Virus record (IMG/VR): IMGVR_UViG_3300047375_001100
Location: 1 to 24,796 of that record
Reading direction: 5' to 3' (one strand)
DNA: 24,796 bases
DNA from: a virus
A model generated the notes under the pieces. That model made no database searches, was not told the origin of the DNA, and saw only the letters and a list, made by a program, of their open reading frames with translations. Each line of letters begins with the position of its first letter. The first letter of the stretch is position 1. The position numbers were made by a program, and so were the translations under genes. Of this stretch, positions 2,183 through 24,796 are shown piece by piece.

Positions 2183-2201
2183 GATAAAATTCGTATATTA
2201 C
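2171..2201 (+). promoter_or_regulatory. Bacteroidota-type promoter upstream of the sliding clamp
   Basis: TTTG (2171-2174), 19 bases, TATATTAC (2194-2201), within the extended element TTCGTATATT at 2190-2199 that recurs in this window. The -33 element lies in the end of gp43B. Initiation 4-6 bases after the -7 box would fall at or next to the ATG at 2206, so the clamp transcript could be almost leaderless. Confidence 0.6.
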
Positions 2202-4005: not shown

Positions 4006-4422
4006 ATGAGTACATTATTCAATGAACGTACACCGTTCGACTTACTATTCCGAAACTTTTTTAAAGCAGACGGATCTTTTCAACCAACCACGTTTGACAA
4101 CAAACAACCACACCCACTAGATATTTTTTATGACGAAGAAGGGCTTCACTTTGAGATTGCCTGTACTGGTCTAACTAAAAAAGACATCCAACTAGAAATA
4201 GATGGAGATCTTTTAAAAATTATCTATGATAAACCAAAAGAAGAAGAAGATTATTCTGGTTACATCTATAAAGGATTAGCTAAACGATCTTTTAACTTAG
4301 GTTATAAAGTAGCAGCTAAATTTGAACTTGAAAGTTTATCAGCTGAAATGAAGGATGGCTTACTTCATATTTTTATTCCAATTGCCGAATCTAAAAAGCC
4401 AAAAACAATTAAAATTAAGTAA
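4006..4422 (+). CDS. hsp20: Small heat-shock protein (Hsp20/alpha-crystallin family)
   Basis: A 138-residue protein. After a short N-terminal region (RTPFDLLFRNFF, the aromatic start typical of Hsp20 proteins), an alpha-crystallin domain spans roughly residues 38-130: HPLDIFYDEEGLHFEIACTG, then KKDIQLEIDGDLLKI and the A/G-L element GLLHIFIPI. The end carries an IxI motif (KTIKIK), used to lock oligomers together. Such proteins hold unfolding proteins in an ATP-independent way. T4-like cyanophages commonly carry an hsp20, but here it leads a module with GroES and GroEL. It has its own predicted promoter. Codon choice in the first 150 bases looks richer in C and G than its neighbours. Confidence 0.93.
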   Translation: MSTLFNERTPFDLLFRNFFKADGSFQPTTFDNKQPHPLDIFYDEEGLHFEIACTGLTKKDIQLEIDGDLLKIIYDKPKEEEDYSGYIYKGLAKRSFNLGYKVAAKFELESLSAEMKDGLLHIFIPIAESKKPKTIKIK

Positions 4423-4440
4423 TAAGTTTTATTAAAAAAG

Positions 4441-4472
4441 CGTGTCCTAGCGCAATATTATTCGTATATTCA
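4441..4472 (+). promoter_or_regulatory. Promoter upstream of the groES/groEL operon
   Basis: The extended element TTCGTATATTCACGT starts at 4461 and contains the -7 box TATATTCA (4465-4472). The -33 position with a 20-base spacer is CGTG, only a partial match. It shares a block of about 25 bases with the promoter at 21688-21719 (CGCAA, a TATT-rich stretch, then TTCGTATATTCACGT). The predicted leader is about 17-20 bases before the ATG at 4494. Confidence 0.6.
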
Positions 4473-4493
4473 CGTTACAAATAAATAAGTTAT

Positions 4494-4817
4494 ATGTCTG
4501 AAACAAAACGAAGGAAATCAATTCAAATTATTACTGATCCTCTACTAGAACCATTTTTTATTACAAAAGATGAATACAGTTATACTGTAAAACAAAATGT
4601 AGTATCAGATGCATCCCACTTTAGATCCAAGGGAAATGCAAAAACATATGAAAAGTCATTATATTATTATCCTACTTTTAGTGATGCTCTTAATAAAATA
4701 GCTGAGTTAAAAGCTGGAGTTGATGATTATAATGATTTAAATAGTTTTATTAACAATTATAAAGAAATTAGTAACCAAATAAAAATTTATACAGATGGAA
4801 TTAGAAGCACTGTTTGA
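4494..4817 (+). CDS. Conserved phage protein of unknown function
   Basis: A 107-residue protein with motifs (IQIITDPLLEPFFITKDEYSYTV, then SHFRSKGNAKTYEKSLYYYPTFSDAL) that I recognise as a small family recurrent in tailed phages, without known function. It begins with a lysine/arginine-rich stretch (KRRKS) and ends in a helical region. It is the first gene after the promoter at 4461 and overlaps the GroES start by 23 bases, so it is probably co-transcribed and translationally coupled with the chaperonin pair. Whether it relates to chaperone function cannot be told. No enzyme motif is visible. Confidence 0.7.
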   Translation: MSETKRRKSIQIITDPLLEPFFITKDEYSYTVKQNVVSDASHFRSKGNAKTYEKSLYYYPTFSDALNKIAELKAGVDDYNDLNSFINNYKEISNQIKIYTDGIRSTV

Positions 4818-5166
4818 TGCTGTTATCGTAAAACCTATAGAAGTAGAAGAAACTACTTATGGTAATATTATTGTACCTGATTTAGGTAAAGAAAAAAATG
4901 AAATGGGCACTGTAGTAGCAGTAGGTCCCGGAAAACCAACAATTTCTGGTAATTTTATTCCTACTAATTTAAAAGTAGGAGATAGAGTAGTTTTACCTAC
5001 TATGGGGTTCACAAAACTACCATATAATGGAGAAGAATATTATGTTGGTCCTGAAAATCAAGTTTTAGCTAAACTTAAAACACAAGTTGCAATTGAAGAG
5101 GCAATAGCAACCACTAAAGTTACTGAAGAAGAAATTAATCAAATAAAAGATTTAACAAATGAGTAA
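4795..5166 (+). CDS. groES: GroES-like co-chaperonin (Cpn10)
   Basis: A 123-residue protein with a full Cpn10 domain in about residues 1-98. DAVIVKPIEVEE is the N-terminal strand. TTYGNIIVPDLGKEKNEMG is the mobile loop, with the hydrophobic IIV that docks on GroEL. GTVVAVGPGKP and LKVGDRVVLP follow, and the core closes with EEYYVGPENQVLAKL. T4 and relatives encode an unusual co-chaperonin, gp31, for folding the major capsid protein; this one looks more like a bacterial GroES. It has an extra tail of about 25 residues, acidic and helical (EEAIATTKVTEEEINQIKDL), that ordinary GroES (about 97 residues) lacks. Its end overlaps the groEL start by eight bases, as in a coupled operon. Confidence 0.92.
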   Translation: MELEALFDAVIVKPIEVEETTYGNIIVPDLGKEKNEMGTVVAVGPGKPTISGNFIPTNLKVGDRVVLPTMGFTKLPYNGEEYYVGPENQVLAKLKTQVAIEEAIATTKVTEEEINQIKDLTNE

Positions 5167-6781
5167 ACAAGTTATATTAGGTTCAGATGCAAGAACCAAT
5201 TTAGTAAAAGGAATTGATATATTAGCAGATGCGGTGGTATCAACATTAGGACCTAATGGTAGAAATGTAGTAATTGCAAACCCCCAAGGAGTACCTCAAT
5301 CAACTAAAGATGGAGTTACTGTAGCAAAATCAATTACACTATCAGAACCTAATCAAGAGTTAGGAGTGCAGTTAGTAAAACAAGCAGCAATTAAAACTGC
5401 AGAAAAAGCAGGTGATGGTACAACAACATCTACTTTATTAGCTCGTGAAATGGTTAAAGCTGGATTAAATGCTTTAAACAATAACGAAAATGCTGTACAA
5501 ATTAAAAGAGATATTGACTCAACTGTTGAAGAAGTAGTTAATAATCTTAGAAATAATATATCAGAAGATATTTCAGGTGAAGAACAATTAGAACAGATTG
5601 CAACAATTTCTGCTAATAATGACCCTGAAACTGGAAAATTAATTTCAACCGCAATAGAAAAAGTAGGATTAGAAGGTGTTGTCCATATTGAAGAATCTCG
5701 TACAGGAGAAACTTACTTAGAAACTGTTGAAGGGTTACAGTTTGAAAGAGGATATAAGTCTCCTTATTTTGTTACTAATAATAGTAATATGACTGCCACA
5801 TTAGATAACCCTCTAATCCTTATTGCGGATCAAAAATTAACCCAAGTTAAAGAATTATTACCTGTATTAGAAGCAGTATCAGCACAAGCAAAATCATTAT
5901 TAATTATAGCAGAAGATATTGATAATGAAGCTTTAGCTACTCTTATTGTTAATAAAATGAGAGGTACAATGAAAGTATGTGCGGTTAAAGCACCTGATTT
6001 TGGTGATAGACGTAAATTAGTATTAGAAGATATTGCTATCACTACTGGTGGGGTAGTATTTGATAAACAAAAAGGAATGAAGCTTGACAAATTCTCTTGG
6101 GAGTGGTTTGGTGAAGCTCGTACTGTAACAATAGAAAAAGAACAAACAACAATTGTAGATGGAAAAGGAGGAATTGAACCAATTGAAGCACGTATTGAAG
6201 AGTTACAACAACAAATCAATAAAGCAACAACGCCGTTCGAAATCGAAAAACTTCAAGAAAGACTCGCGAAATTCACAGGAGGAGTAGCGATAATTCATGT
6301 AGGTGGGAATACTGAAACCGAAATGAAGGAGAAAAAAGATAGAGTTGATGATGCACTACATGCAACAAAAGCTGCTATTGAAGAAGGTATAGTACCTGGA
6401 GGAGGAACAGCATTATTATATGCCTCTTCAGGTCTAGAAGCTAAAACAACAGGGGCTCAAATTGTAATAGAAGCTTGTGCTAAACCATTTAATCAAATCT
6501 TAGTTAATGCTGGGTTTGATATTGTTAAAGGGCAAATTTTAGCAGATAATTTAGTTAATTCAGGTAATGATACTTGGGCCGGGTTTAATATTAAAACTGA
6601 AGAAATAGTTAATATGAAAGAAGAAGGTATTATTGACCCTACTAAAGTAGCTAGAACAGCTTTACAAAACGCGGCATCAGTAGCGGGTACAGTATTATTA
6701 ACAGAATGTACTGTAGTAGATGAACTAAGTGAAGATAATAATCAACCTCAAATAGATCCTTCTATGATGGGGATGATGTAA
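5159..6781 (+). CDS. groEL: GroEL-like chaperonin (Cpn60), apparently complete
   Basis: A 540-residue type I chaperonin. Equatorial ATP-site motifs are intact: GPNGRNV (31-37), DGVTVAKSI (51-59), GDGTTT (85-90) and VDDALHATKAA, with the aspartate needed for hydrolysis, followed by GGGTALL. Apical substrate- and GroES-binding positions are kept (RGYKSPYF, ELLPVLEAV, ATLIVN), and GFGDRRK is nearly intact as DFGDRRK. Compared with E. coli GroEL, a short equatorial loop after the GGG motif is missing by several residues. The tail is SMMGMM, not a long GGM repeat. Complete GroEL genes are known in only some large phages, where they help fold phage proteins. Paired with its own GroES it is probably a functional ring-and-lid system for the virion or replication proteins. 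Confidence 0.96.
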   Translation: MSKQVILGSDARTNLVKGIDILADAVVSTLGPNGRNVVIANPQGVPQSTKDGVTVAKSITLSEPNQELGVQLVKQAAIKTAEKAGDGTTTSTLLAREMVKAGLNALNNNENAVQIKRDIDSTVEEVVNNLRNNISEDISGEEQLEQIATISANNDPETGKLISTAIEKVGLEGVVHIEESRTGETYLETVEGLQFERGYKSPYFVTNNSNMTATLDNPLILIADQKLTQVKELLPVLEAVSAQAKSLLIIAEDIDNEALATLIVNKMRGTMKVCAVKAPDFGDRRKLVLEDIAITTGGVVFDKQKGMKLDKFSWEWFGEARTVTIEKEQTTIVDGKGGIEPIEARIEELQQQINKATTPFEIEKLQERLAKFTGGVAIIHVGGNTETEMKEKKDRVDDALHATKAAIEEGIVPGGGTALLYASSGLEAKTTGAQIVIEACAKPFNQILVNAGFDIVKGQILADNLVNSGNDTWAGFNIKTEEIVNMKEEGIIDPTKVARTALQNAASVAGTVLLTECTVVDELSEDNNQPQIDPSMMGMM

Positions 6782-6981: not shown

Positions 6982-6994
6982 TTTCGTATATTAT
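6963..6994 (+). promoter_or_regulatory. Promoter-like element overlapping the start of the 6993 gene
   Basis: TGTG (6963-6966), 20 bases, TATATTAT (6987-6994), containing the recurrent TTCGTATATT at 6983-6992. The box abuts and overlaps the ATG at 6993, so a normal start site 4-6 bases past the box would exclude that ATG. It may serve the clamp-loader gene further on, use an unusually short spacing, or be a coincidence. Confidence 0.42.
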
Positions 6995-7262
6995 GGCTAC
7001 AAAGATTGAAGAAAAAAATATCCTAATCGCTCGGAGAGTTCCTCCGGGCGATAAATGGAGATTAGTTGCAAATGAACCTGATGGTCCTATACATAAAACT
7101 TTAACTGATGCTTTGGAAGCTTATATGATTAAAACAGGATTTAAAGGCAGTTATAGATTAGAACCTCTAAAAAGCAGTTTATATGCAATTGATTCCAAAG
7201 AAACAGAAGTAACACCAGAACCAGAAAAGAAATATTCATTGTATGGCGAATTCGGAGAATAG
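6993..7262 (+). CDS. Hypothetical protein preceding the clamp loader
   Basis: An 89-residue protein that I do not recognise. It has a short conserved-looking N-terminal half (IARRVPPGDKWRLVANEPDGP, then a helical HKTLTDALEAYMI) and a C-terminal acidic/proline linker. It overlaps the start of the gp44 gene by 20 bases, so its translation probably feeds the clamp loader. There are no membrane segments, zinc ligands or enzyme motifs. The ATG directly abuts the promoter-like TTCGTATATT, and no ATG, GTG or TTG occurs in frame until about codon 45, so the start is either this ATG or the gene is read from upstream transcripts. Confidence 0.62.
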   Translation: MATKIEEKNILIARRVPPGDKWRLVANEPDGPIHKTLTDALEAYMIKTGFKGSYRLEPLKSSLYAIDSKETEVTPEPEKKYSLYGEFGE

Positions 7263-10705: not shown

Positions 10706-12145
10706 ATGAATAAAAGTTTTAAATACCTTCCTCAAGATAAAAGGAAGAAAATATTATTAATTTGTGATGATATTAGAGTACACTCAGGTGTTGCCACAAT
10801 AGCAAAAGAAATTGTAACCCACACAGCTCACCATTTTAATTGGGTACAAATGGCTGGGGCAATAAACCACCCAGATAAAGGGAAAAAATTAGATTTATCT
10901 TCAGATACTAATAAAGTAGCTAATATAGAGGATTCTTCTGTAAGACTTTATCCCGTTGATGGTTATGGTAATCCATCAATTCTAAGACAAGTTATATCCC
11001 TTGAAAAACCAGATGCTATAATGCTTTTTACTGACCCAAGGTACTTTACATGGGTATTTAATATGGAACATGAAATTAGAAAATTAATTCCTATTGCTTA
11101 CTTAAATATTTGGGATGATTATCCCGCTCCAATGTACAATAAACCCTATTATGAAGCTTGTGATTTACTAATGGGTATATCAAAACAAACAGTTAATATA
11201 AATAAATTAGTACTTAATAATAAAAAAGATAGTAAAATTTTCAAGTATATTCCTCATGGAAAAAACCCAGAAATATATTACCCCATTATAGAGGAAAATA
11301 AAGATTATTTAGAATTTAGAAATAAAATATTTGGTAATACAAAACCAGAATTTGTTGTATACTTTAATTCTAGAAATATACGAAGAAAACAAATACCAGA
11401 TACAATGTTAGCTTTTAGGGCATTTTTAGATTCTTTACCTAAGGAAAAATCAAAAAATTGTTTCCTTTTATTAAAAACAGAACTAGTTACAGATGCCGGA
11501 ACAGATTTACCAAGAGTAAAAGAATATTTCTTTGGAGAAGAGTATGACAATAATGTTAAATTTATAGAATCTAAATTAGAGGAAAAGCATTTAAATTATT
11601 TATATAATATAGCAGATGTTCAAATTTTATTAACCTCAAATGAAGGTTGGGGGTTAACAATTACGGAAGCAATATTATCAGGTACTCCTATTATAGCAAA
11701 TACTACGGGTGGAATGCAAGATCAAATGAGATTTATAGATGAAAATGGAAAATGGTTTACCCCTAGTCCGGATATACCTTCTAATCATAGAGGAACATAT
11801 AAAGAACATGGTGAATGGGCCTTTCCCGTTTATCCAACCTCAAGATCTATTCAGGGTTCTCCTCCAACACCTTATATCTATGATGATAGATGTAAATGGG
11901 AGGATGCTTTAGAACGAATTAAAGAAGTCTATAATTTAAGTCCTGAAGAACGTAGAACTAAAGGGTTAAAGGGAAGAGAATGGGCTATAAGTGAGGAAGC
12001 AGGTTTTACATCTGAACATCAAGGAAAAAGAGTTATAGAAGCATTTGATGAATTATTTGATACTTGGAAACCAAGAGAAAAGTATGAAATAATAAGTGCT
12101 AATGAATATAAAGGAAAAAATTTAAATCATAAATTATTTTATTAA
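10706..12145 (+). CDS. Glycosyltransferase, GT-B fold (GT4/GT1-like)
   Basis: A 479-residue protein. The N-terminal Rossmann domain begins KKILLICDDIRVHSGVATI, typical of the acceptor-binding half of GT4 enzymes. The C-terminal donor domain holds FNSRNIRRKQIPDTMLAF, then NIADVQILLTSNEGWGLTITEA, the E-x7-E nucleotide-sugar motif, and SGTPIIANTTGG. These enzymes transfer a sugar from an activated donor, usually with retention of configuration. Acceptor and donor cannot be read from sequence. It follows the RHH gene after 11 bases, and its last base is the first base of the next start (TAATG at 12143-12147). There is no signal peptide or membrane segment. Confidence 0.9.
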   Translation: MNKSFKYLPQDKRKKILLICDDIRVHSGVATIAKEIVTHTAHHFNWVQMAGAINHPDKGKKLDLSSDTNKVANIEDSSVRLYPVDGYGNPSILRQVISLEKPDAIMLFTDPRYFTWVFNMEHEIRKLIPIAYLNIWDDYPAPMYNKPYYEACDLLMGISKQTVNINKLVLNNKKDSKIFKYIPHGKNPEIYYPIIEENKDYLEFRNKIFGNTKPEFVVYFNSRNIRRKQIPDTMLAFRAFLDSLPKEKSKNCFLLLKTELVTDAGTDLPRVKEYFFGEEYDNNVKFIESKLEEKHLNYLYNIADVQILLTSNEGWGLTITEAILSGTPIIANTTGGMQDQMRFIDENGKWFTPSPDIPSNHRGTYKEHGEWAFPVYPTSRSIQGSPPTPYIYDDRCKWEDALERIKEVYNLSPEERRTKGLKGREWAISEEAGFTSEHQGKRVIEAFDELFDTWKPREKYEIISANEYKGKNLNHKLFY

Positions 12146-18207: not shown

Positions 18208-19244
18208 AAATAAGTTTAGTAATACCTAGTTATAATAATCTAAGACATTTAAAAAATGCTTATGGTAGTGTTAGAAAGTATTATACTAATGAAGTAGAAT
18301 TAATTTTAATAGATGATGGTTCTAATGATGGAACTATTGAATGGTTAAAATCTTTAAAAGATAATAATTTAATTTATTGGAGAGAACAAAGTAGAATAGG
18401 CCACACTATTCTATATGATAAGGGAATAAATAAAGCTACCAATGACATTGTAGGTATTTTACATGCAGATATGTATATTGCACCTGACTATATAGAAAAT
18501 TTATTAAAACATTTAAAACCAGGAAAAGTTATATGTGGTACAAGAGTTGAACCACCTCTACATCCCCCTGGAAATGAAAAAATTATTAAAGATTTTGGAT
18601 TAGATTTTGATACACTTAAAATTAATGAATTTTATAAATTTTCTAAAATTGAAATAAAAAAATCTAAAGATTTGACTTCTAAAGGAATGTTTGCTCCTTG
18701 GATTTTATATAAAAAAGATTTTCAATCAATGGGTGGTCATGACCCTAAATTTGCTCCATTCCCATATGAAGATTCTGATATTTTTCAAAGATGGCTTATC
18801 GCTGGTTATGAATTAGTACAAAGTAGAGATGCTTTAGTTTATCACTTAACTTGTAGAGGACATAGGTGGAATAAAGAAATAGGTAAAAATGATGATGAAT
18901 TTAAACTATTTGAAGAAAATGCTAGAAAACATTATCTTAAAAAATGGGGAAGTTGGATCCAAAATGATAATTTCAACCACCCAATATTAATACCAGTATA
19001 TAAGAAAAAACTTATTATAAATAATCCAAACCCCCAATTAGAACAATTGCATGACTGGTTTAATGATGGTGAAGATATAATTGTAACTATTGATGGGAAT
19101 AATTTGGATCAAAATGATATGGAATATATTGTTAAATTAAACCAAATAATAGAAGATAGTGGAGAAATTGGGGAATTTCAAATTGGAAATATTCATATAA
19201 AAATAAATAAAATAAAAGATATTTCTAAAACTTTCATTAAATAA
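18204..19244 (+). CDS. Glycosyltransferase, GT-A fold (GT2), with C-terminal extension
   Basis: A 346-residue GT2 enzyme. ISLVIPSYNNLRHLKNAY starts the domain, ELILIDDGSNDGTIEWL is the classical nucleotide-binding loop, and ILHADMYIAPDY holds the DxD-like HAD site. GGHDPKFAPFPYEDSDIFQRW contains the ED catalytic-base region. About 70 residues beyond the transferase domain form a separate-looking tail with charged and hydrophobic stretches (LEQLHDWFNDGEDIIVTIDGNN) of unknown role. It is the last gene of the glycan island; a 59-base gap with a promoter follows. It overlaps the methyltransferase stop by four bases (ATGA). Confidence 0.9.
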   Translation: MKISLVIPSYNNLRHLKNAYGSVRKYYTNEVELILIDDGSNDGTIEWLKSLKDNNLIYWREQSRIGHTILYDKGINKATNDIVGILHADMYIAPDYIENLLKHLKPGKVICGTRVEPPLHPPGNEKIIKDFGLDFDTLKINEFYKFSKIEIKKSKDLTSKGMFAPWILYKKDFQSMGGHDPKFAPFPYEDSDIFQRWLIAGYELVQSRDALVYHLTCRGHRWNKEIGKNDDEFKLFEENARKHYLKKWGSWIQNDNFNHPILIPVYKKKLIINNPNPQLEQLHDWFNDGEDIIVTIDGNNLDQNDMEYIVKLNQIIEDSGEIGEFQIGNIHIKINKIKDISKTFIK

Positions 19245-19246
19245 TA

Positions 19247-19278
19247 TTTGGAATCCTAAATACTTTTTCATATATTTA
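19247..19278 (+). promoter_or_regulatory. Bacteroidota-type promoter after the glycan island
   Basis: TTTG (19247-19250), exactly 20 bases, TATATTTA (19271-19278), inside TTCATATATT, one base different from the recurrent TTCGTATATT. It sits in a true intergenic gap and would give a leader of about 20 bases before the ATG at 19304. Confidence 0.62.
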
Positions 19279-19303
19279 CACCTAATTTAAAGGTTATATA
19301 TTT

Positions 19304-19654
19304 ATGCAACAGACTATTAAAACCCCCCGTACTGTGAAAATGATTCCATGTATTAGATGTAAAGAAGATATGCCCGAATTAAGGTTAACTAAATTTGGAT
19401 ATGATTTTTGTGTTAACTGTTCAACAGTTGGTGCTAAAAGAGGTATTCCTGTAACAAGAGGATCAGGTGATCATACTTACACTGAAACTATTGTTATGGA
19501 AGAAGACCAATATCAAGACTTTGTATTAGCAACAGCTATTGAACGTGGTGATACTAAAACAGCTAAAGCTGAAATGTTAAATATGGATAAAGAAGAACGT
19601 AATTTACAAGGTCCATTCCAAATTATTAACAATACAGATAAAGATAGAAGCTAA
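19304..19654 (+). CDS. Small zinc-finger protein (DksA/TraR-like zinc ribbon)
   Basis: A 116-residue protein with one zinc ribbon: CIRC at residues 16-19 and CVNC at 36-39, surrounded by MIPCIRCKEDMPELRLTKFG. The spacing resembles the zinc finger of DksA/TraR proteins, which bind RNA polymerase, but the long coiled-coil tip of DksA is not evident. The rest is acidic and helical (VMEEDQYQDFVLATAIERGDTKTAKAEML). It is the first gene after a promoter and overlaps the next ATG by one base. A transcription-related role is possible but unproven. Confidence 0.65.
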   Translation: MQQTIKTPRTVKMIPCIRCKEDMPELRLTKFGYDFCVNCSTVGAKRGIPVTRGSGDHTYTETIVMEEDQYQDFVLATAIERGDTKTAKAEMLNMDKEERNLQGPFQIINNTDKDRS

Positions 19655-20271
19655 TGCCTAAGGCAAAACCACTATCCAAAGAACAAATTTTAGCAGCTCA
19701 AGCCAAAACAAAATCTAATATGGCTGCTGCTCGTTATCTTCATGTGTCATATCAACATTATAAGAAGTGGGCTAAATTATATAAATTATTTGCGGGTCAT
19801 AAAAATCAAAGTGGTAAAGGTATTCCTAAATTTTTAAAAGGACCTAAAAAAATGCCTCATATGTTAGAAATAATTGAGGGTAGAATAGCTGCATCTTCAT
19901 TTGATCCAAATAAACTTAAATATGCTTTAATAGAGCAGGGATATTTATTAGAGGAATGTGCTGTATGTTCTTTTAAAGAAAGGCGAGTATTAGACTATAA
20001 AATACCTTTGTTACTTCATTTTCAAGATAATAATAGCAATAATTACAGCTTAGATAACGTTCAGCTATTATGTTATAATCATTATTTTTTAACTGTAGGA
20101 GATATTTTTAATGTTAAAGATGTTAAACAAATAGAATCTAAACAAGAACATTTTGGTACAAGCGAAAAAGTAGAATGGGAGGTAGATGATTATCATTTAC
20201 AACGTTTAAAAGAATTAGGTTTAGATAGTGATGATAAAGATGATCCTAATCAATACATAAGCAGAATATGA
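19654..20271 (+). CDS. Helix-turn-helix protein with an HNH-like zinc-binding domain
   Basis: A 205-residue protein with two parts. Residues about 8-48 (SKEQILAAQAKTKSNMAAARYLHVSYQHYKKWAKLY) look like a helix-turn-helix of the kind in homing-endonuclease and transposase DNA-binding domains. Residues 102-143 resemble an HNH/beta-beta-alpha-metal domain: C102xxC105, LLLHFQDN with H122, LDNVQLLC with N135 and C140, and a final H143. The first catalytic histidine pair is weak (HF instead of DH or HH), so nuclease activity is uncertain. It may be a site-specific DNA-binding factor. It lies between a zinc-ribbon gene and a small basic gene with single- to four-base overlaps. Confidence 0.7.
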   Translation: MPKAKPLSKEQILAAQAKTKSNMAAARYLHVSYQHYKKWAKLYKLFAGHKNQSGKGIPKFLKGPKKMPHMLEIIEGRIAASSFDPNKLKYALIEQGYLLEECAVCSFKERRVLDYKIPLLLHFQDNNSNNYSLDNVQLLCYNHYFLTVGDIFNVKDVKQIESKQEHFGTSEKVEWEVDDYHLQRLKELGLDSDDKDDPNQYISRI

Positions 20272-20447
20272 AAAAAGCAAGACGAGCTAGATCATTAGAT
20301 AAAAAATATCATAAAATAACTAAAGATTATGATAAACAAAAATCTAAACATTTAGAAAAATTAACTGATAAAATGCTTAAGAATGATGAAAAAGCTCAAC
20401 AATTAAAATCTAAAACAATGAAAGGTGACTTTCTAAAAAACTTTTAA
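20268..20447 (+). CDS. Small highly basic helical protein
   Basis: A 59-residue ORF whose ATG overlaps the previous stop (ATGA) and which ends two bases before the next start, filling an otherwise empty gap of about 180 bases. It is dominated by lysine (KKARRARSLDKKYHKITKDYDKQKSKHLEKL) and reads as one long, strongly charged helix. I recognise no family. A nucleic-acid-binding or scaffold-type role would fit the composition, but such sequences are hard to judge. The tight fit with both neighbours is the best evidence that it is real. Confidence 0.65.
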   Translation: MKKARRARSLDKKYHKITKDYDKQKSKHLEKLTDKMLKNDEKAQQLKSKTMKGDFLKNF

Positions 20448-20449
20448 TT

Positions 20450-20758
20450 ATGAAATTTAAACACAATTGGGAATTTAATACTATAGAAGAAGTAAATAAT
20501 ATCTTTAAAGATGGGATGAAAGAACTAAATGATTTAATTGTAGATACTGCTATAAAAAATTTAAAAACAAAAAGAGTAACAATCCCAGTGGTATCAATTT
20601 ATACTAAAGATGAAGATGTAACATATGATATTATGATTGATCGTCCTGATATGATTGAAACATTAGAACAGAATTTAACTGCAATGGAAGAGTATGAAGA
20701 TTATGAGCGTTGTCAAAAAATTGTTAGTGCTTTAGATTATTTAAAATCAAAATCTTAA
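20450..20758 (+). CDS. Hypothetical protein, helical with a small beta segment
   Basis: A 102-residue acidic protein that I do not recognise. Two helices (FNTIEEVNNIFKDGMKELNDLIVDTAI and TLEQNLTAMEEYEDYERCQKIVSAL) flank a short beta region (KRVTIPVVSIYTKDEDVTYDIMI). There is no zinc site, membrane segment or catalytic motif. It starts two bases after the small basic ORF and ends two bases before the transglycosylase-like gene, in the same run of short genes. The basic protein before it and this acidic one could be partners, but only their adjacency suggests it. Confidence 0.62.
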   Translation: MKFKHNWEFNTIEEVNNIFKDGMKELNDLIVDTAIKNLKTKRVTIPVVSIYTKDEDVTYDIMIDRPDMIETLEQNLTAMEEYEDYERCQKIVSALDYLKSKS

Positions 20759-20760
20759 TT

Positions 20761-21291
20761 ATGAGAACATTTTTATTATTATTTATATTATTTATTGTAC
20801 CTTCAAATAAACCAATCCCCCAAGAATTACCTGTATTAGAGGTTAAAGATATTAAAAAAGAGGTTATTGAAATTAAAGGTATGAATGAATTTTTATTTGC
20901 TATAGGACATCAAGAATCAGGTAATAGATATTTTATTGTGAACAGATATGGTTATATGGGTAAATACCAATTTGGTAAATCAACATTAAAAACTTTAAAA
21001 ATTAAAGTAACTAAAGAAGCATTTTTAAATAGTCCCGATTTACAAGAATTTGCTATGAAACAAAATTTATTATATAATAAGAAAAAATTACAAAAATATA
21101 TAGATAAGTTTGAAGGGCAAACTATAAATGGTATATTAATAACGGAATCGGGTTTATTAGCAGCTGCTCATTTAGGTGGACAAGGCAGTGTTAAAAAATG
21201 GTTTAGAAATGGTAAAGTTAAAGAAGATGGTAATGGTGTGAAAATAACTACGTACATGCAGCGTTTTTCTGGATACACATTATATTTATGA
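20761..21291 (+). CDS. Exported lytic-transglycosylase-like (lysozyme-fold) protein
   Basis: A 176-residue protein with an N-terminal hydrophobic segment (residues 1-14, MRTFLLLFILFIVP) that looks like a signal peptide or signal anchor. The mature part resembles soluble lytic transglycosylases: FLFAIGHQESGN with the likely catalytic E52, GYMGKYQFGKSTL at about 64-76, then LAAAHLGGQGSVKKWF. It ends with GVKITTYMQRFSGYTL, the typical final element. It would cleave peptidoglycan, acting at lysis or as a virion-linked wall-opening enzyme. The export signal argues for action in the periplasm by a route other than an ordinary holin-released endolysin. No holin is evident beside it. The next gene overlaps its stop by four bases. 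Confidence 0.8.
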   Translation: MRTFLLLFILFIVPSNKPIPQELPVLEVKDIKKEVIEIKGMNEFLFAIGHQESGNRYFIVNRYGYMGKYQFGKSTLKTLKIKVTKEAFLNSPDLQEFAMKQNLLYNKKKLQKYIDKFEGQTINGILITESGLLAAAHLGGQGSVKKWFRNGKVKEDGNGVKITTYMQRFSGYTLYL

Positions 21292-21599
21292 TAAAAAGAT
21301 TATGGCACGAATTGTTATATCAGATTACAAAGCTAATAAGCGTAAAAAACGACCTGGGGTACATTCAAAAAACAACACAAGTAGAAGTAAACAAAGCAAA
21401 AATTATGTCAAAGCATATAGAGGCCAAGGGAAATAGAATGCAACTAAGTACAATAGCATTATTTAATAATATGACTGAAGAAGATTTTATGGCAATCCAT
21501 AATGCAGGTCAATTAAAAAATTTATGTATGGCTTTAAGTCTAGATTTACAATCAATTAAAGATGAAAAATTTAAAAATAATAACACTTACTCAGCATGA
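21288..21599 (+). CDS. Hypothetical protein following the transglycosylase
   Basis: A 103-residue protein that I do not recognise. Its first 20 residues are mildly hydrophobic and amphipathic (IKRLWHELLYQITKLISV), followed by a helical stretch (TTQVEVNKAKIMSKHIEAKG) and a short acidic, helical C-terminal half (NNMTEEDFMAIHNAGQLKNL). The start overlaps the transglycosylase stop (ATGA). It could be a lysis-related helper because of position, but no transmembrane segment is strong enough to call a holin or spanin. It ends about 80 bases before a terminator. Confidence 0.58.
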   Translation: MIKRLWHELLYQITKLISVKNDLGYIQKTTQVEVNKAKIMSKHIEAKGNRMQLSTIALFNNMTEEDFMAIHNAGQLKNLCMALSLDLQSIKDEKFKNNNTYSA

Positions 21600-21676
21600 A
21601 TGGAATGATGCTATGAAACTTCCTACACCTCATAGGAATAAAAAGAAATACTATAAAAAAATAAAACATAAGAAAA

Positions 21677-21709
21677 GCGGTGACCAATTTGGTTGCCGCA
21701 AATATTTTT
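21677..21709 (+). terminator. Intrinsic terminator overlapping the next promoter
   Basis: A hairpin at 21677-21699 has arms GCGGTGACCAA and TTGGTTGCCGC with a single central T. All 11 arm positions can pair in RNA, with two G-U wobbles; in practice the loop would be the central AATTT. It is followed by AAATATTTTTC, a U-rich run. It ends the block of genes from 19304 to 21599. The -33 box (TTTG, 21688-21691) of the next promoter lies inside the hairpin. Confidence 0.7.
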
Positions 21710-21719
21710 CGTATATTCA
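21688..21719 (+). promoter_or_regulatory. Bacteroidota-type promoter for the SWIM/ligase operon
   Basis: TTTG (21688-21691), exactly 20 bases, TATATTCA (21712-21719), within TTCGTATATTCACGT. It is the best match in the window. The predicted leader is about 20 bases before the ATG at 21744, and TATAAAATAAAG follows the box. It overlaps the terminator hairpin, so termination and initiation are arranged back to back. Confidence 0.68.
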
Positions 21720-21743
21720 CGTATAAAATAAAGGTTACATTAT

Positions 21744-22184
21744 ATGGCATTGTGGAAATTTACAAATTTAAATAAACACGGAAATTACAGGTCAAGAATA
21801 ATTCATACTAAGGGTGCATTAAGCATACCTGGTAGTGGATTTGGTCCAATTATATTTGCAAATCGATTTAAGTATGAATATAAAGGTGAAGTTTTGCCCC
21901 CAACAATAGCAAGTATCGGTGGTAAAACATATTTAATGCCATTATGGAAAGAAGTAATTGAAGGCACTACAGCTGATGATGTGGAATGGATTAAACCTAA
22001 ACCTAAGGTTAAACAAGAACCAATAGTTGTAATGACTGTTAGCAGTAGTGACGCAAATAAAACGTATAAAACGGTATATTACCCAGAATCAGGCAAATTC
22101 CATTGTAATTGTCCAGGTAGATGGAGAGCGTTTGATGGTAAGTGTAAACACATAAAAGCATTAGAATTAAAAATAAATAAATAA
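21744..22184 (+). CDS. SWIM zinc-finger protein
   Basis: A 146-residue protein. The C-terminal end has a SWIM motif: C121-N-C123, ten residues, C134-K-H136 (FHCNCPGRWRAFDGKCKHIKALE). SWIM fingers bind DNA or proteins and occur in SWI2/SNF2 helicases, transposases and RAD51-linked proteins. Here the finger is alone with a beta-rich N-terminal region (GPIIFANRFKYEYKGEVLPP, then GKTYLMPLWKEVIEGT) that I do not recognise. It is the first gene after the terminator/promoter and lies five bases before the DNA ligase gene, so a role in DNA end handling or strand joining is plausible. Confidence 0.78.
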   Translation: MALWKFTNLNKHGNYRSRIIHTKGALSIPGSGFGPIIFANRFKYEYKGEVLPPTIASIGGKTYLMPLWKEVIEGTTADDVEWIKPKPKVKQEPIVVMTVSSSDANKTYKTVYYPESGKFHCNCPGRWRAFDGKCKHIKALELKINK

Positions 22185-22189
22185 AGGTT

Positions 22190-23461
22190 ATGACAGAATT
22201 ACAAAATTTTATAGATAAAATGCGTGCTACAAGCAGTAGCACAGATAAAGTCCAAATTATTAAAGAATCAAGTAAGTATATTCATAAAGTTTTAGAATAT
22301 ACATACAATCCCTTTAAACAATACTATGTTACAAGTAAAACAATTAAGAAAAATCCTAATATATCAGAAATAGGATATTTTGATTTATTTTATTTATTAG
22401 ACGCTTTAAATAAACGTACTGTAACAGGTCATAAAGCTATAGCTCATATTAATGCTTTTACTGAAGGTTTAAGTGATAGTGAAGTTGAATTAGTTTATAG
22501 TATTATAGATAAAGATTTAAAAATTAGAGCTGGAGATAAAGTAATTAATAAAGCTGTACCTAATTTAGTACCTACATTTTCAGTTGCATTAGCCAAAGAA
22601 TATGATGGTAAATGTGATTGGCAAAATGATAATTGGTGGGCATCAAGAAAATTAGATGGTGTTAGGTGTTTAGCTGTAGTTAATTATGAAGGTGAATGTA
22701 CACTTTATTCTAGAATGGGTAAAGAATTAACTACATTAAATAAAGTTAAAGAAGCAATTGAAGCAACAGGTATTATTAACACAGTATTTGACGGTGAGAT
22801 TTGTTTACTTGATGAAAATGGAAATGAAGATTTTCAAGGTGTAATGAAACAATTAAGACGTAAAGATCATCAAATTGAAAACCCCGCTTATATGATTTTT
22901 GATATGATTCATAAACCTAATTTTGATAATCAAAAAGGTGGTCCTATATTAAGTGAAAGACTATCAGCATTAAGAGGATTTTTACATGGTAGATTTAATA
23001 TAACTAATATTTTACGTTATACCTCCCAATTCAGAATAACAGATGGTAGACACTTTGATAAATGGGGTCAAATAGCAACTGATAATAATTGGGAAGGATT
23101 TATGATACGTAAAGATGTTAGTTATGAAGGTAAACGTACTAAAAATTTACTTAAAGTAAAGAAATTTTATGATGCTGAATATGTTGTAGTTGATTATGAT
23201 AATGATGATCATGAAGTGGTTAGAGATGGTAGATCAGAAACAATTAAAATGTTAGCTCAAGTATGGATTGAACATAAAGGACATAGAGTAAAAGTTGGTA
23301 GTGGTTGGACTCAGGATCAACGTTTGCAGTATATGGATGGTTCAATTGTAGGCAAAGTAATTACTGTTCAGTATTTTGAAGAAACTAAAAATGATAAAGG
23401 TGGAATTAGTTTACGATTCCCTACTGTTAAAATTGTTCATGGAGATAAACGAGAAGTATAA
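22190..23461 (+). CDS. 30: ATP-dependent DNA ligase, T4 gp30-like
   Basis: A 423-residue ligase. The N-terminal region (1-140) resembles the DNA-binding part of gp30-type ligases (TVTGHKAIAHINAF, KDLKIRAGDKVINK). The nucleotidyltransferase core has motif I RKLDGVR with the adenylated lysine K154, FDGEICLLDENG with E203 (motif III), YMIFDMI (236-240 region, motif IIIa), EGFMIRKD (302-309, motif IV) and LLKVKKF (320-326, motif V). The OB-fold with GSGWTQDQR and LRFPTVKIVHGDK follows. It is slightly shorter than T4 ligase (487). It seals Okazaki fragments and nicks and completes the T4-like replication set. Confidence 0.95.
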   Translation: MTELQNFIDKMRATSSSTDKVQIIKESSKYIHKVLEYTYNPFKQYYVTSKTIKKNPNISEIGYFDLFYLLDALNKRTVTGHKAIAHINAFTEGLSDSEVELVYSIIDKDLKIRAGDKVINKAVPNLVPTFSVALAKEYDGKCDWQNDNWWASRKLDGVRCLAVVNYEGECTLYSRMGKELTTLNKVKEAIEATGIINTVFDGEICLLDENGNEDFQGVMKQLRRKDHQIENPAYMIFDMIHKPNFDNQKGGPILSERLSALRGFLHGRFNITNILRYTSQFRITDGRHFDKWGQIATDNNWEGFMIRKDVSYEGKRTKNLLKVKKFYDAEYVVVDYDNDDHEVVRDGRSETIKMLAQVWIEHKGHRVKVGSGWTQDQRLQYMDGSIVGKVITVQYFEETKNDKGGISLRFPTVKIVHGDKREV

Positions 23462-23478
23462 AGTAATGCGCGGGAAAT

Positions 23479-23509
23479 TTTGATACTCGGAGGAGGGTAT
23501 GTATCTTCC
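23479..23509 (+). promoter_or_regulatory. Possible promoter in the gap after DNA ligase
   Basis: TTTG (23479-23482), 19 bases, TATCTTCC (23502-23509) fits TTTG/TAnnTT. It lies in the 90-base gap 23462-23551, which also contains the only strong GGAGGAGGG run in the window. If it is real, the leader to ATG 23552 is about 38 bases, which supports that start. Confidence 0.35.
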
Positions 23510-23551
23510 CCATGTTGTGATAATGAAGTTACAGCACTAAATAAAGGTTTT

Positions 23552-23854
23552 ATGAACAAATTAGAGCAAAAACAATTATTATTTTTAAAGAAAAATTATT
23601 TTACTTCTACCCAAAAAACATTATGTAAAAAGTTTGAGCAATATGGGGGTACATTTAGTTTTATGGTAGATAATAAAAAATATAAACTATCATATAAGCA
23701 ATCTAAAGCATATACTAATTTTTTATTTGAATCTACTAAAAATAATACAGGTACAATGCATAAAGGTAATAATGTTCGTGTACAAGATAAGTATGGTAAA
23801 ATTAATTACACTGAATTAAATTTACACAATAAAATAGATAAAGCCTATGTGTAA
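23552..23854 (+). CDS. Hypothetical protein with a GGTF...KYK segment
   Basis: A 100-residue basic protein if it starts at ATG 23552. An in-frame TTG at 23480 would add 24 residues (ILGGGYVSSPCCDNEVTALN...), but that stretch overlaps a possible promoter and reads as non-coding. The core has a helix (QKTLCKKFEQ), then YGGTFSFMVDNKKYKLSYKQ, similar to GGTFKVAGIKYKI in the gene at 175-438, so the two may be distant paralogues. The rest is polar and rich in asparagine and lysine. Its end overlaps the HNH gene by eight bases. I know no family for it. Confidence 0.6.
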   Translation: MNKLEQKQLLFLKKNYFTSTQKTLCKKFEQYGGTFSFMVDNKKYKLSYKQSKAYTNFLFESTKNNTGTMHKGNNVRVQDKYGKINYTELNLHNKIDKAYV

Positions 23855-24308
23855 AGAAAAGTGTAAAGTACATTATTGTGATAATAAAAGGGATTGGGGT
23901 AAAAATGGTCAATTAATGAACTATTGTAGCCACTGTAAAAAATTAAATCTACTTAATAAAAGTGGTACATGGAAGAATCCCCATATAATTTTTAAAAATA
24001 ATATAATCTTTAATGATGTAACGGCTTTAAAATGTAATTATGATATTTGGGGAGATGGAAGTAAATGTAATGATAATAAGCAAAAATACTTAGCAGTACC
24101 TGGTATAGATAAAAAATGGGTATGGGGTATGTTTGATGTTGATCATATTAAAAAACCAACAGAATGGGATAAAAAACATAATAAATGGTACTGCTCCCAT
24201 ACAGGTAAAATAGAACACCCAAGCAATTATCAATTAATTTGTAAAGATTGCCATAGAGTAAAAAGTCATATTAATGGTGATTATGATGGAAGTAAAAATA
24301 AAAAATAA
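23847..24308 (+). CDS. HNH endonuclease-like protein
   Basis: A 153-residue protein with an HNH (beta-beta-alpha-metal) domain: FDVDHIKKP with D99/H100, HPSNYQLICKDCHRVKS with N127, C132xxC135 and H136. Upstream cysteines (CSHC at 27-30, with C63 and C74) could form a second zinc site. HNH proteins cut DNA as homing endonucleases, restriction enzymes or packaging-linked nickases. Here it stands free between two unknown genes, overlapping the first by eight bases and followed directly by the next. A mobile homing nuclease is one option and a domesticated phage enzyme another. Confidence 0.78.
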   Translation: MCKEKCKVHYCDNKRDWGKNGQLMNYCSHCKKLNLLNKSGTWKNPHIIFKNNIIFNDVTALKCNYDIWGDGSKCNDNKQKYLAVPGIDKKWVWGMFDVDHIKKPTEWDKKHNKWYCSHTGKIEHPSNYQLICKDCHRVKSHINGDYDGSKNKK

Positions 24309-24689
24309 ATGGAAAATAGAGGTAGACCAAGTGAAAATGTAGTTAAACTTACAAAATGGAATCTAGATACAGATGATTCTATATGGAAGTACGATATGGA
24401 TAAGGCAACTAATGGTCCTTATTCAGTAGAACAAAAATTTCAAGCTGGGAATAAACCAGAAAAATTTAAGGTTGATCAAAAACCTTATGGTAAACATCCG
24501 GTTGTAATGGTATTTAAAACGTCTAATCGTTCTAATGCTAAAACTAAAATTAAAGTATTTAATAAAAATATAGATTATATTTTAAGTGCTAAAAAGTTAC
24601 CTGGTGTACCTGAAAAAGCAGAAATAATTGATTTAGCAGTTGGTAAGTCATTTATTAGTAAATATAAACAAAAATATAGCTTAGCTTAA
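24309..24689 (+). CDS. Hypothetical protein
   Basis: A 126-residue basic protein that I do not recognise. It has a tryptophan-containing acidic start (LTKWNLDTDDSIWKYDMDKA), a middle rich in lysine and glycine, and a helical end (FNKNIDYILSAKKLPGVPEKAEIIDLAVG) that looks like the most conserved part. No metal sites or membrane segments are seen. It begins at the base after the HNH stop. A 42-base AT-rich gap with a TATATTTA box at 24696 follows, but no matching -33 element was found. Confidence 0.62.
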   Translation: MENRGRPSENVVKLTKWNLDTDDSIWKYDMDKATNGPYSVEQKFQAGNKPEKFKVDQKPYGKHPVVMVFKTSNRSNAKTKIKVFNKNIDYILSAKKLPGVPEKAEIIDLAVGKSFISKYKQKYSLA

Positions 24690-24731
24690 TTTTTATATAT
24701 TTATAACAAAATATTAATTAATAAATTTATT

Positions 24732-24796
24732 ATGTTAAAAATTATAGGTCTTATAGTAGTATTATTAACAATTGGAGCTGCAGTTTATTATTTCGG
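24732..24796 (+). CDS. Start of a membrane or exported protein, cut by the window end
   Basis: Twenty-one full codons from ATG 24732 encode a strongly hydrophobic segment (LKIIGLIVVLLTIGAAVYYF) that reads as a transmembrane helix or signal anchor. The rest is outside the window. It follows an AT-rich gap. Nothing more about its identity can be said from this fragment. Confidence 0.55.
   Translation, partial: MLKIIGLIVVLLTIGAAVYYF

Follow-up and report, generated by a model that had tools for sequence, protein, structure and literature searches.

The window analysed here, a 24,796-nucleotide stretch of viral DNA, contains a site at which an RNA hairpin, probably the terminator of one gene group, overlaps the promoter of the next, the stop and start signals sharing about 45 bases of DNA. 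Judged from its sequence, we read this site as an intrinsic terminator fused to a tandem Bacteroidetes-type promoter (-33 TTTG / -7 TAnnTTTG), and put the probability of this reading at about 0.74. The fused form is a variant of the known arrangement of a terminator followed by a tandem promoter. The overlap of the two signals, its recurrence, compensatory changes between the hairpin arms, a preference for pairing in RNA of one strand and an association with T-runs can all be read from the sequences compared below.

The window covers part of the genome of a large phage; its PHROG matches include a DNA polymerase fragment, a clamp loader, an exonuclease, GroEL, Hsp20, glycosyltransferases and an ATP-dependent DNA ligase. 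The GroEL-like chaperonin gene lies at 5159-6781 (phrog_5725) and the Hsp20-like gene at 4006-4422 (phrog_432). The closest named records are Tenacibaculum and Flavobacterium phages, with 66-68% DNA identity across 4-5% of a 5.8-kb query. An Rfam search of the window returned 0 matches up to E 1. The features around the overlap are as follows.

21288-21599, plus strand: upstream ORF of 103 aa, taken from the ORF list, whose 3' end overlaps the start of the small ORF; tblastn finds homologs in relatives, and PHROG and Pfam searches gave no match.
21562-21726, plus strand: small ORF of 54 aa (MKNLKIITLTQHEW...), with tblastn E values down to 3e-22 in relatives and no match in PHROG and Pfam searches.
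21677-21699, plus strand: candidate terminator stem-loop GCGGTGACCA-ATT-TGGTTGCCGC, from sequence and fold.
21688-21692, plus strand: TTTGG box, the -33 element, at offset -20 to -16 from TTCG.
21700-21709, plus strand: loose U-run AAATATTTTT, the last two bases of which are the first two of TTCGTATATT.
21708-21721, plus strand: -7 region TTCGTATATTCACG, with TTCGTATATT at 21708-21717; TATATTCA (21712-21719) corresponds to TAnnTTTG.
21724-21725, plus strand: predicted transcription start of the downstream operon, placed by analogy with Flavobacterium johnsoniae (PMC6847099, available text) at 4 or 5 nt beyond the -7 element.
21744-22184, plus strand: ORF of 146 aa, the first one downstream, in which a C-x-C ... 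C-x-x-x-H pattern is visible by eye close to the C-terminal end; no match in PHROG or Pfam, and none in named phage records by tblastn.
22190-23461, plus strand: ATP-dependent DNA ligase (phrog_114, E 1.4e-76), the second gene downstream of the hairpin.

The hairpin is made up of 10 pairs, six of them G-C and two G-U, around a 3-nt loop. Its minimum free energy is -15.9 kcal/mol, whereas shuffles average -6.5 (z -4.39); 0 of 200 shuffles were equally stable. The preliminary description of this DNA had spoken of an 11-position hairpin with a U-run: the hairpin stands, but it has 10 pairs rather than 11 positions, and the U-run, though present, is imperfect, being displaced by AAATA between the stem and TTTTT. 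The RNA 3' end would presumably fall near 21705-21709 under general terminator rules. The same description had placed the TTTG box of the next promoter inside the hairpin, and this is borne out, 21688-21691 taking in the final two bases of the loop and the two with which the 3' arm begins. Among the 30 plus-strand hairpins of the window that reach 18 on a simple stem score this one ranks third; the top-scoring stem, ATCGCTCGGAGAGTTCCTCCGGGCGAT at 7026-7052, lies inside ORF 6993-7262 just past its promoter. Terminator-like matches in 19000-24796 number 2, the hairpin included, against an average of 1.4 in shuffles, so that scanning the window for terminators would not by itself prove the hairpin.

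In a logo of 359 distinct TTCGTATATT contexts, drawn from 200 viral loci with TTCGTATATT that were chosen irrespective of upstream sequence, T, T, G and G occupy -19 to -16 with frequencies of 0.81, 0.89, 0.93 and 0.85. This TTGG box is separated from TTCGTATATT by a fixed 15-nt gap, and CACG-like bases follow on the 3' side. In the larger contigs TTCGTATATT lies almost wholly on one strand (25 to 0 in G001, 43 to 0 in G007 and 26 to 1 in G006). The consensus for the Bacteroidetes primary sigma factor is -33 TTTG / -7 TAnnTTTG, and transcription begins 4-5 nt downstream of the -7 element (PMC6847099, in the text available). By its boxes and spacing the phage motif fits such a promoter, TTTG and TATATTCA occupying the corresponding positions at a distance of 20 nt (between -17 and +4). 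The correspondence is not complete: the end bases TTCA differ from TTTG, TTCACG replacing the latter, the phage motif has TTCG before the -7 element, and its -33 box is strong, whereas that box is weak and much less evident in F. johnsoniae in the same portion of PMC6847099. A literature search with the literal TTCGTATATT gave no title on phage promoters among the matches listed. TTGG-N15-TTCGTATATT also occurs in at least 119 stretches of bacterial genome contigs from many phyla; with 14 fixed bases and 257 billion bases chance matches are expected, and the scan gives nothing firm on hosts.

Since the TTGG box must stay, a hairpin can be set over this promoter with the box in its loop (centre near -19.5) or in its 5' arm (centre near -13.5), and both registers are found. 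Stems scoring at least 17 and centred between -21 and -17.5 are present in 18 of 359 deduplicated contexts in which the T-run was not selected (a number equal to that of the logo contexts by coincidence), while the arm-swap means sum to 3.1. The 18 are divided among the ligase loci (3/52), the CACG scan (6/142) and the TTTGG scan (9/165), for which arm swapping gives means of 0.93, 0.78 and 1.40. In the T-run-selected set the stem occurs in 17/101 contexts against 1.27 expected from the arm swap. For the second register (centre -14 to -12.5, box in the 5' arm) the ligase, CACG, TTTGG and T-run-selected sets hold 4, 9, 9 and 4 stems against 0.68, 1.20, 3.08 and 1.85. At the control positions, -50 and -70, the sets have 0 to 3 stems, except for 6 against 1.38 at -50 in the CACG set. 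These contexts were deduplicated at 70-75% identity within each set, not by tree, and the stem scores and cut-offs were devised for the present analysis. Among the unselected contexts, at least 5 T in -8 to -1 are found in 10/18 with the hairpin as against 31/341 without. The 341 of 359 promoters that have no hairpin make the fused element a minority class, the TTGG-in-loop register accounting for about one in twenty promoters of this type.

The element also recurs across phage contigs that were chosen for holding the motif: G001, G006, G007 and G008 whole, with 100 kb of G005, which was picked since a T-run site was already evident there. Fifteen of their 146 promoters, called by the -7 block alone, have a stem of at least 20 centred between -21 and -12, where random positions give 0.88 and nearby ones 0.80; 6 of the 15 fall in one 60-kb block of G005. 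A strict terminator filter, applied to the five contigs and to Flavobacterium phage immuto, returns 76 matches on the coding strand and 33 on the other, and those fused to a promoter-like motif number 13 against 0. A lax filter shows no excess of terminator-like matches on the coding strand (148, with 156 on the other), and 17 of the 148 are fused. G008 gave no fused element with the stem search or with either filter, and the strict filter found none in the second G005 block. The overlap of hairpin and promoter is thus found beyond the window, in relatives, phage contigs and a cultured phage, with different arms. It had been proposed as a design of this phage; in view of the 18/359 contexts and 15/146 contig promoters we reject the idea that it is exclusive to it, many relatives and other contigs having it too.

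The cultured phage is immuto, whose genome is NC_055915 and which has 10 TTCGTATATT copies, all on one strand. By eye, those with TTCG at 22088, 64518 and 130562 follow a hairpin with a T-run; they lie between the phosphoesterase and endolysin genes, after gp157, and between gp064 and a PhoH-like gene. In Tenacibaculum phage PTm1 no hairpin of the fused kind accompanies any of the three TTCGTATATT copies. The PTm1 locus L762 (55967-57420) carries three TTCGTATATTTGA copies on one strand within 1.5 kb, and none occurs elsewhere in that genome.

Upstream of homologs of ORF 21744-22184 the site can be compared directly among 32 relative loci and the window. Ten of the 33 are without the motif and 23, which include three near-identical pairs, keep the promoter. 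A stem scoring at least 17, in one or other of the two registers, accompanies it in 14 of the 23; by eye, the stem is interrupted in two more loci (L010 and L024), and in the remaining seven the promoter stands without one. The orthologous arms change together, from GCGGTGACC/GGTTGCCGC in the window to GTGGGAGCC/GGTTCCCAC in L004, ATGGGAACC/GGTTCCCAT in L002 and GTGGGGAAG/CTTCCCCAC in L025.

A larger family is provided by a dehydrogenase-like gene (phrog_12409). From 80 loci, L687, L719, L726, L731, L736 and L745 were left out as their match lay too near the contig end; 14 of the remaining 74 lack the motif, and the other 60 reduce to 41 distinct contexts. A stem of at least 20 stands upstream of the gene in 33 of the 41, where swapping arms within the family gives a mean of 14.5 and a maximum of 24 in 300 trials. 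The inner pairs switch type from one context to another (G-C 15 and C-G 11; T-A 20 and C-G 11; C-G 19, A-T 7 and T-G 3); they were tallied from each sequence's own stem, a MAFFT alignment of 20 of the site sequences having disagreed with the stems. In the related contexts L738, L739, L742 and L749 the promoter is kept and both stem and T-run are lost. The gene (L162:3354-4649 and relatives) occurs in at least 598 candidate stretches in IMG/VR, very often with the fused element upstream, and matches Campylobacter phages and faecal phages at less than 60% identity. Besides this gene, those downstream of fused sites include, among the ones searched, a T4-type baseplate protein, a PD-(D/E)XK nuclease and a UvrD-like helicase.

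The types of mismatch tolerated in the stems point to the molecule that is under selection. In the -20 register, 50 deduplicated stems from 1,097 contexts contain 588 Watson-Crick, 31 G-T and 7 A-C pairs, counted under a scoring scheme that gives G-T and A-C equal weight. When arms that do not belong together are paired at the same coordinates, the G-T fraction is 0.565, from which the observed 31 to 7 departs with p 0.001; when the box itself is left out the ratio is 25 to 7 (p 0.006). Since G and T can form a wobble pair only in the RNA transcribed towards the promoter, the structure is, by these sequences, selected on, and kept as, RNA of that strand. In the -13 register G-U pairs do not significantly exceed A-C (10 to 4 in all, 2 to 3 with the box left out). 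At least 5 T of 8 accompany 45/50 stems in the -20 register, from a pool that includes the T-run scan, and 13/25 in the -13 register.

An inverted repeat could alternatively act as DNA: a dimeric phage regulator would use it at -33 as its operator or as a site for activation, and the RNA would be uninvolved. The stem does cover the -33 box, the GTGGC of the dehydrogenase family is conserved in sequence, and repeated GCACGGGAGGCTTGGCTTCCCGGG copies without a U-run are present in several contigs; 12 of the 25 deduplicated -13 register stems likewise have no U-run, and for such stems a dyad is a possible reading. However, the arms differ wholly between families and covary, T-runs come after the stems, and an excess of G-U over A-C of 31 to 7 is not favoured by a DNA dyad. 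The RNA strand asymmetry leads us to reject both a dyad and a hairpin like those of phage N4 as the main reading, and we consider a regulator dyad an unlikely explanation of the element. The GCACGGGAGGCTTGGCTTCCCGGG-type stems, which sit on the TTGG box before TTCGTATATT without a U-run in L141, L091, L095, L182, L148 and L115 (two copies each in L141 and L182), are not explained by termination.

Most fused hairpins lie clear of translation. The upstream stop codon is more than 30 nt before TTCG at 50/54 fused sites, as against 163/418 other promoters of this type, most of the remainder of which have the upstream stop codon within the promoter; fused hairpins should thus usually be untranslated. 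In the window the hairpin follows the stop codon of the 103-aa ORF but not that of the small ORF, which is conserved up to about HKK and whose last 16 codons or so cross the hairpin and promoter. The product of the small ORF is basic (TLTQHEW ... HRNKKKYY), and its TAA, at 21724-21726, falls in the promoter of the next operon. The stop lies beyond the U-run in all eight hairpin loci that have this ORF directly upstream (the window, L137, L004, L006, L002, L003, L341 and L005), although these are few and related. In L281 and L011 the small ORF meets a promoter without a hairpin and the stop codon comes before TTCG; in the other six of the 16 small-ORF loci compared, the ORF ends soon after the conserved part, with no adjoining promoter of this type.

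With its stop codon beyond the U-run, the small ORF would yield messages that end at the U-run without a stop codon, and a ribosome translating it could block the hairpin. Either termination at the window site is partial, or it is gated by translation, or the ORF tail is unused. The overlap speaks against simple, efficient termination at this site and complicates the idea of insulation there; since its U-run is displaced and its hairpin lies within a conserved small ORF, termination by the window copy is probably partial. The gated option can be stated as regulated read-through, in which a ribosome on the small ORF opens the hairpin and the site serves to attenuate transcription passing from the small ORF into the ligase operon. 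It would account for the conserved ORF crossing the hairpin in 8/8 loci and for the stop before TTCG in L281 and L011, which have no hairpin, and it would avoid the non-stop messages otherwise made. Against it, in L010, L025 and L035, for example, the gene upstream is another one and stops short of the hairpin, the upstream stop generally precedes the hairpin, and the independent loci are few; we think it improbable.

The hairpin could also be a 3'-end processing or stability element, with RNA running through the promoter and then being trimmed back. Selection at the RNA level and stems without a U-run fit this scheme equally well, but the T-run association (10/18 against 31/341) is expected of termination and not of trimming, and we regard the scheme as distinctly less than probable, with long odds against it. 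A DNA hairpin extruded by supercoiling and read by, or limiting, the polymerase, as at N4 virion RNA polymerase promoters, would suit the fixed place relative to the promoter, the conserved loop box and the gyrase-dependent abolition of an E. coli promoter by a hairpin between -35 and -10 (described in the available part of PMC4496689), but is very improbable in view of the RNA strand asymmetry, the shifting registers, a motif of host sigma type and the 18/359 frequency of the TTGG register, where an N4-type mechanism needs a hairpin at every promoter.

From the overlap, the covariation and the T-runs we infer termination, initiation and insulation as follows. As a fused terminator and promoter, the element would act twice. 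RNA from the upstream genes would fold into the hairpin and the polymerase would be released on the U-run leading into TTCG; as duplex, the same DNA would present the TTTGG box and TTCGTATATT to a sigma-loaded polymerase, and the downstream operon would start about 15-20 bp beyond the RNA end. In the second register (centre near -13.5) the U-run would merge with TTCG.

A conventional intrinsic (Rho-independent) terminator with a tandem promoter is alike in its GC-rich hairpin, its U-run and the codirectional next promoter. It is unlike the fused element in that the latter has the phage -33 box inside the hairpin, a U-run that extends into the -7 region and two fixed registers. The early region of the Streptomyces phage phiC31 has terminators just before its early promoters, with hairpins that have no U-tails. 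It resembles the present case in its repeated terminator-promoter pairs insulating short operons, and differs in that its hairpins precede the promoter and have no U-tails, whereas the fused element has the box inside the hairpin. In the N4 virion RNA polymerase promoters, as described in the text available from PMC4496689, a hairpin likewise has a fixed place in a phage promoter and consists partly of conserved bases and partly of free pairs; there, however, the recognition element is a DNA hairpin, whereas the fused element is selected as RNA and most promoters of its type have no hairpin. According to the available portion of PMC11347151, most mapped E. coli and B. subtilis terminators have a start site within about 1000 bp, and the distances in T7, T3 and SP6 range from 14 to 1742 bp. 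Our literature search, in which subscription journals were thinly covered, found no fused terminator-promoter in Bacteroidetes phages among the matches listed.

In recycling termination, a bacterial polymerase that stays on the DNA after terminating can restart at the nearest promoter; as reported in the same portion of PMC11347151, and unlike the fused elements, this was shown in vitro with bacterial terminators at a distance. A handover of this kind, in which host polymerase terminating on the U-run remains positioned on the -33 and -7 boxes and begins a new round immediately, is conceivable here, though we think it rather unlikely. Were it to occur, the RNA would be cut while the flow of polymerase was kept, adjoining operons being coupled in rate with their messages separate; where a copy overlaps an ORF, the proportion of read-through to handover would depend on translation of that ORF. 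The elements offer a natural test bed for whether, inside cells, a terminated polymerase starts again at the promoter nearest to it. Signals for termination and for initiation are commonly regarded as distinct parts, and here they share 45 bases repeatedly, with different arms. Phage transcription is little mapped in the bacterial phylum concerned, and TTGG in the loop with a T-run into TTCG provides a sequence rule for operon borders in these phages, as well as a compact part for Bacteroidetes circuits.

Three other plus-strand promoter sites in the window were compared with the fused one.

2190-2199, plus strand: TTCGTATATT copy without a hairpin (z -0.13).
4440-4453, plus strand: GCGTGTCCTAGCGC, put forward as a second hairpin; conserved in sequence, weak in fold and with no U-run.
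4461-4474, plus strand: TTCGTATATTCACG promoter upstream of ORF 4494-4817.
6983-6992, plus strand: TTCGTATATT copy without a hairpin (z 0.84), directly abutting the ATG of the ORF at 6993.

Neither of the intergenic plus-strand copies at 2190 and 6983 has a hairpin better than chance in shuffles, and a fifth TTCGTATATT copy, at 11375 on the minus strand, lies within a gene. A search for hairpins at the other window promoters accordingly leaves one site of four, 21677-21699, the others having z of -0.13, 0.84 and -1.36, so the fused element is not a general design within the window. The suggestion that 4440-4453 repeats the same design does not hold. Its fold of -5.3 kcal/mol (z -1.36) was equalled by 20/200 shuffles, it has no U-run, and the sequence itself is what relatives keep; we reject it as a terminator and regard it as a conserved sequence element. 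Nearly identical GCGTGTCCTAGCGC and promoter motif stand upstream of homologs of ORF 4494-4817 in 53 of the 54 loci examined, out of 80, with variants in L560, L562, L567, L583, L585, L586, L605 and L633, among others. L633 has by eye a longer stem and a T-run at the place of GCGTGTCCTAGCGC.

At 6983-6995 (TTCGTATATTATGG) the annotated start would be upstream of the predicted RNA start. An ATG at offset 10 or 11 is found in 35/359 TTCGTATATT contexts; at this site, either the gene starts further downstream or the motif has another role. The whole of 4440-4474, GCGTGTCCTAGCGCAATATTATTCGTATATTCACG, is an unusually conserved promoter element upstream of ORF 4494-4817 and is perhaps the site of a regulator.
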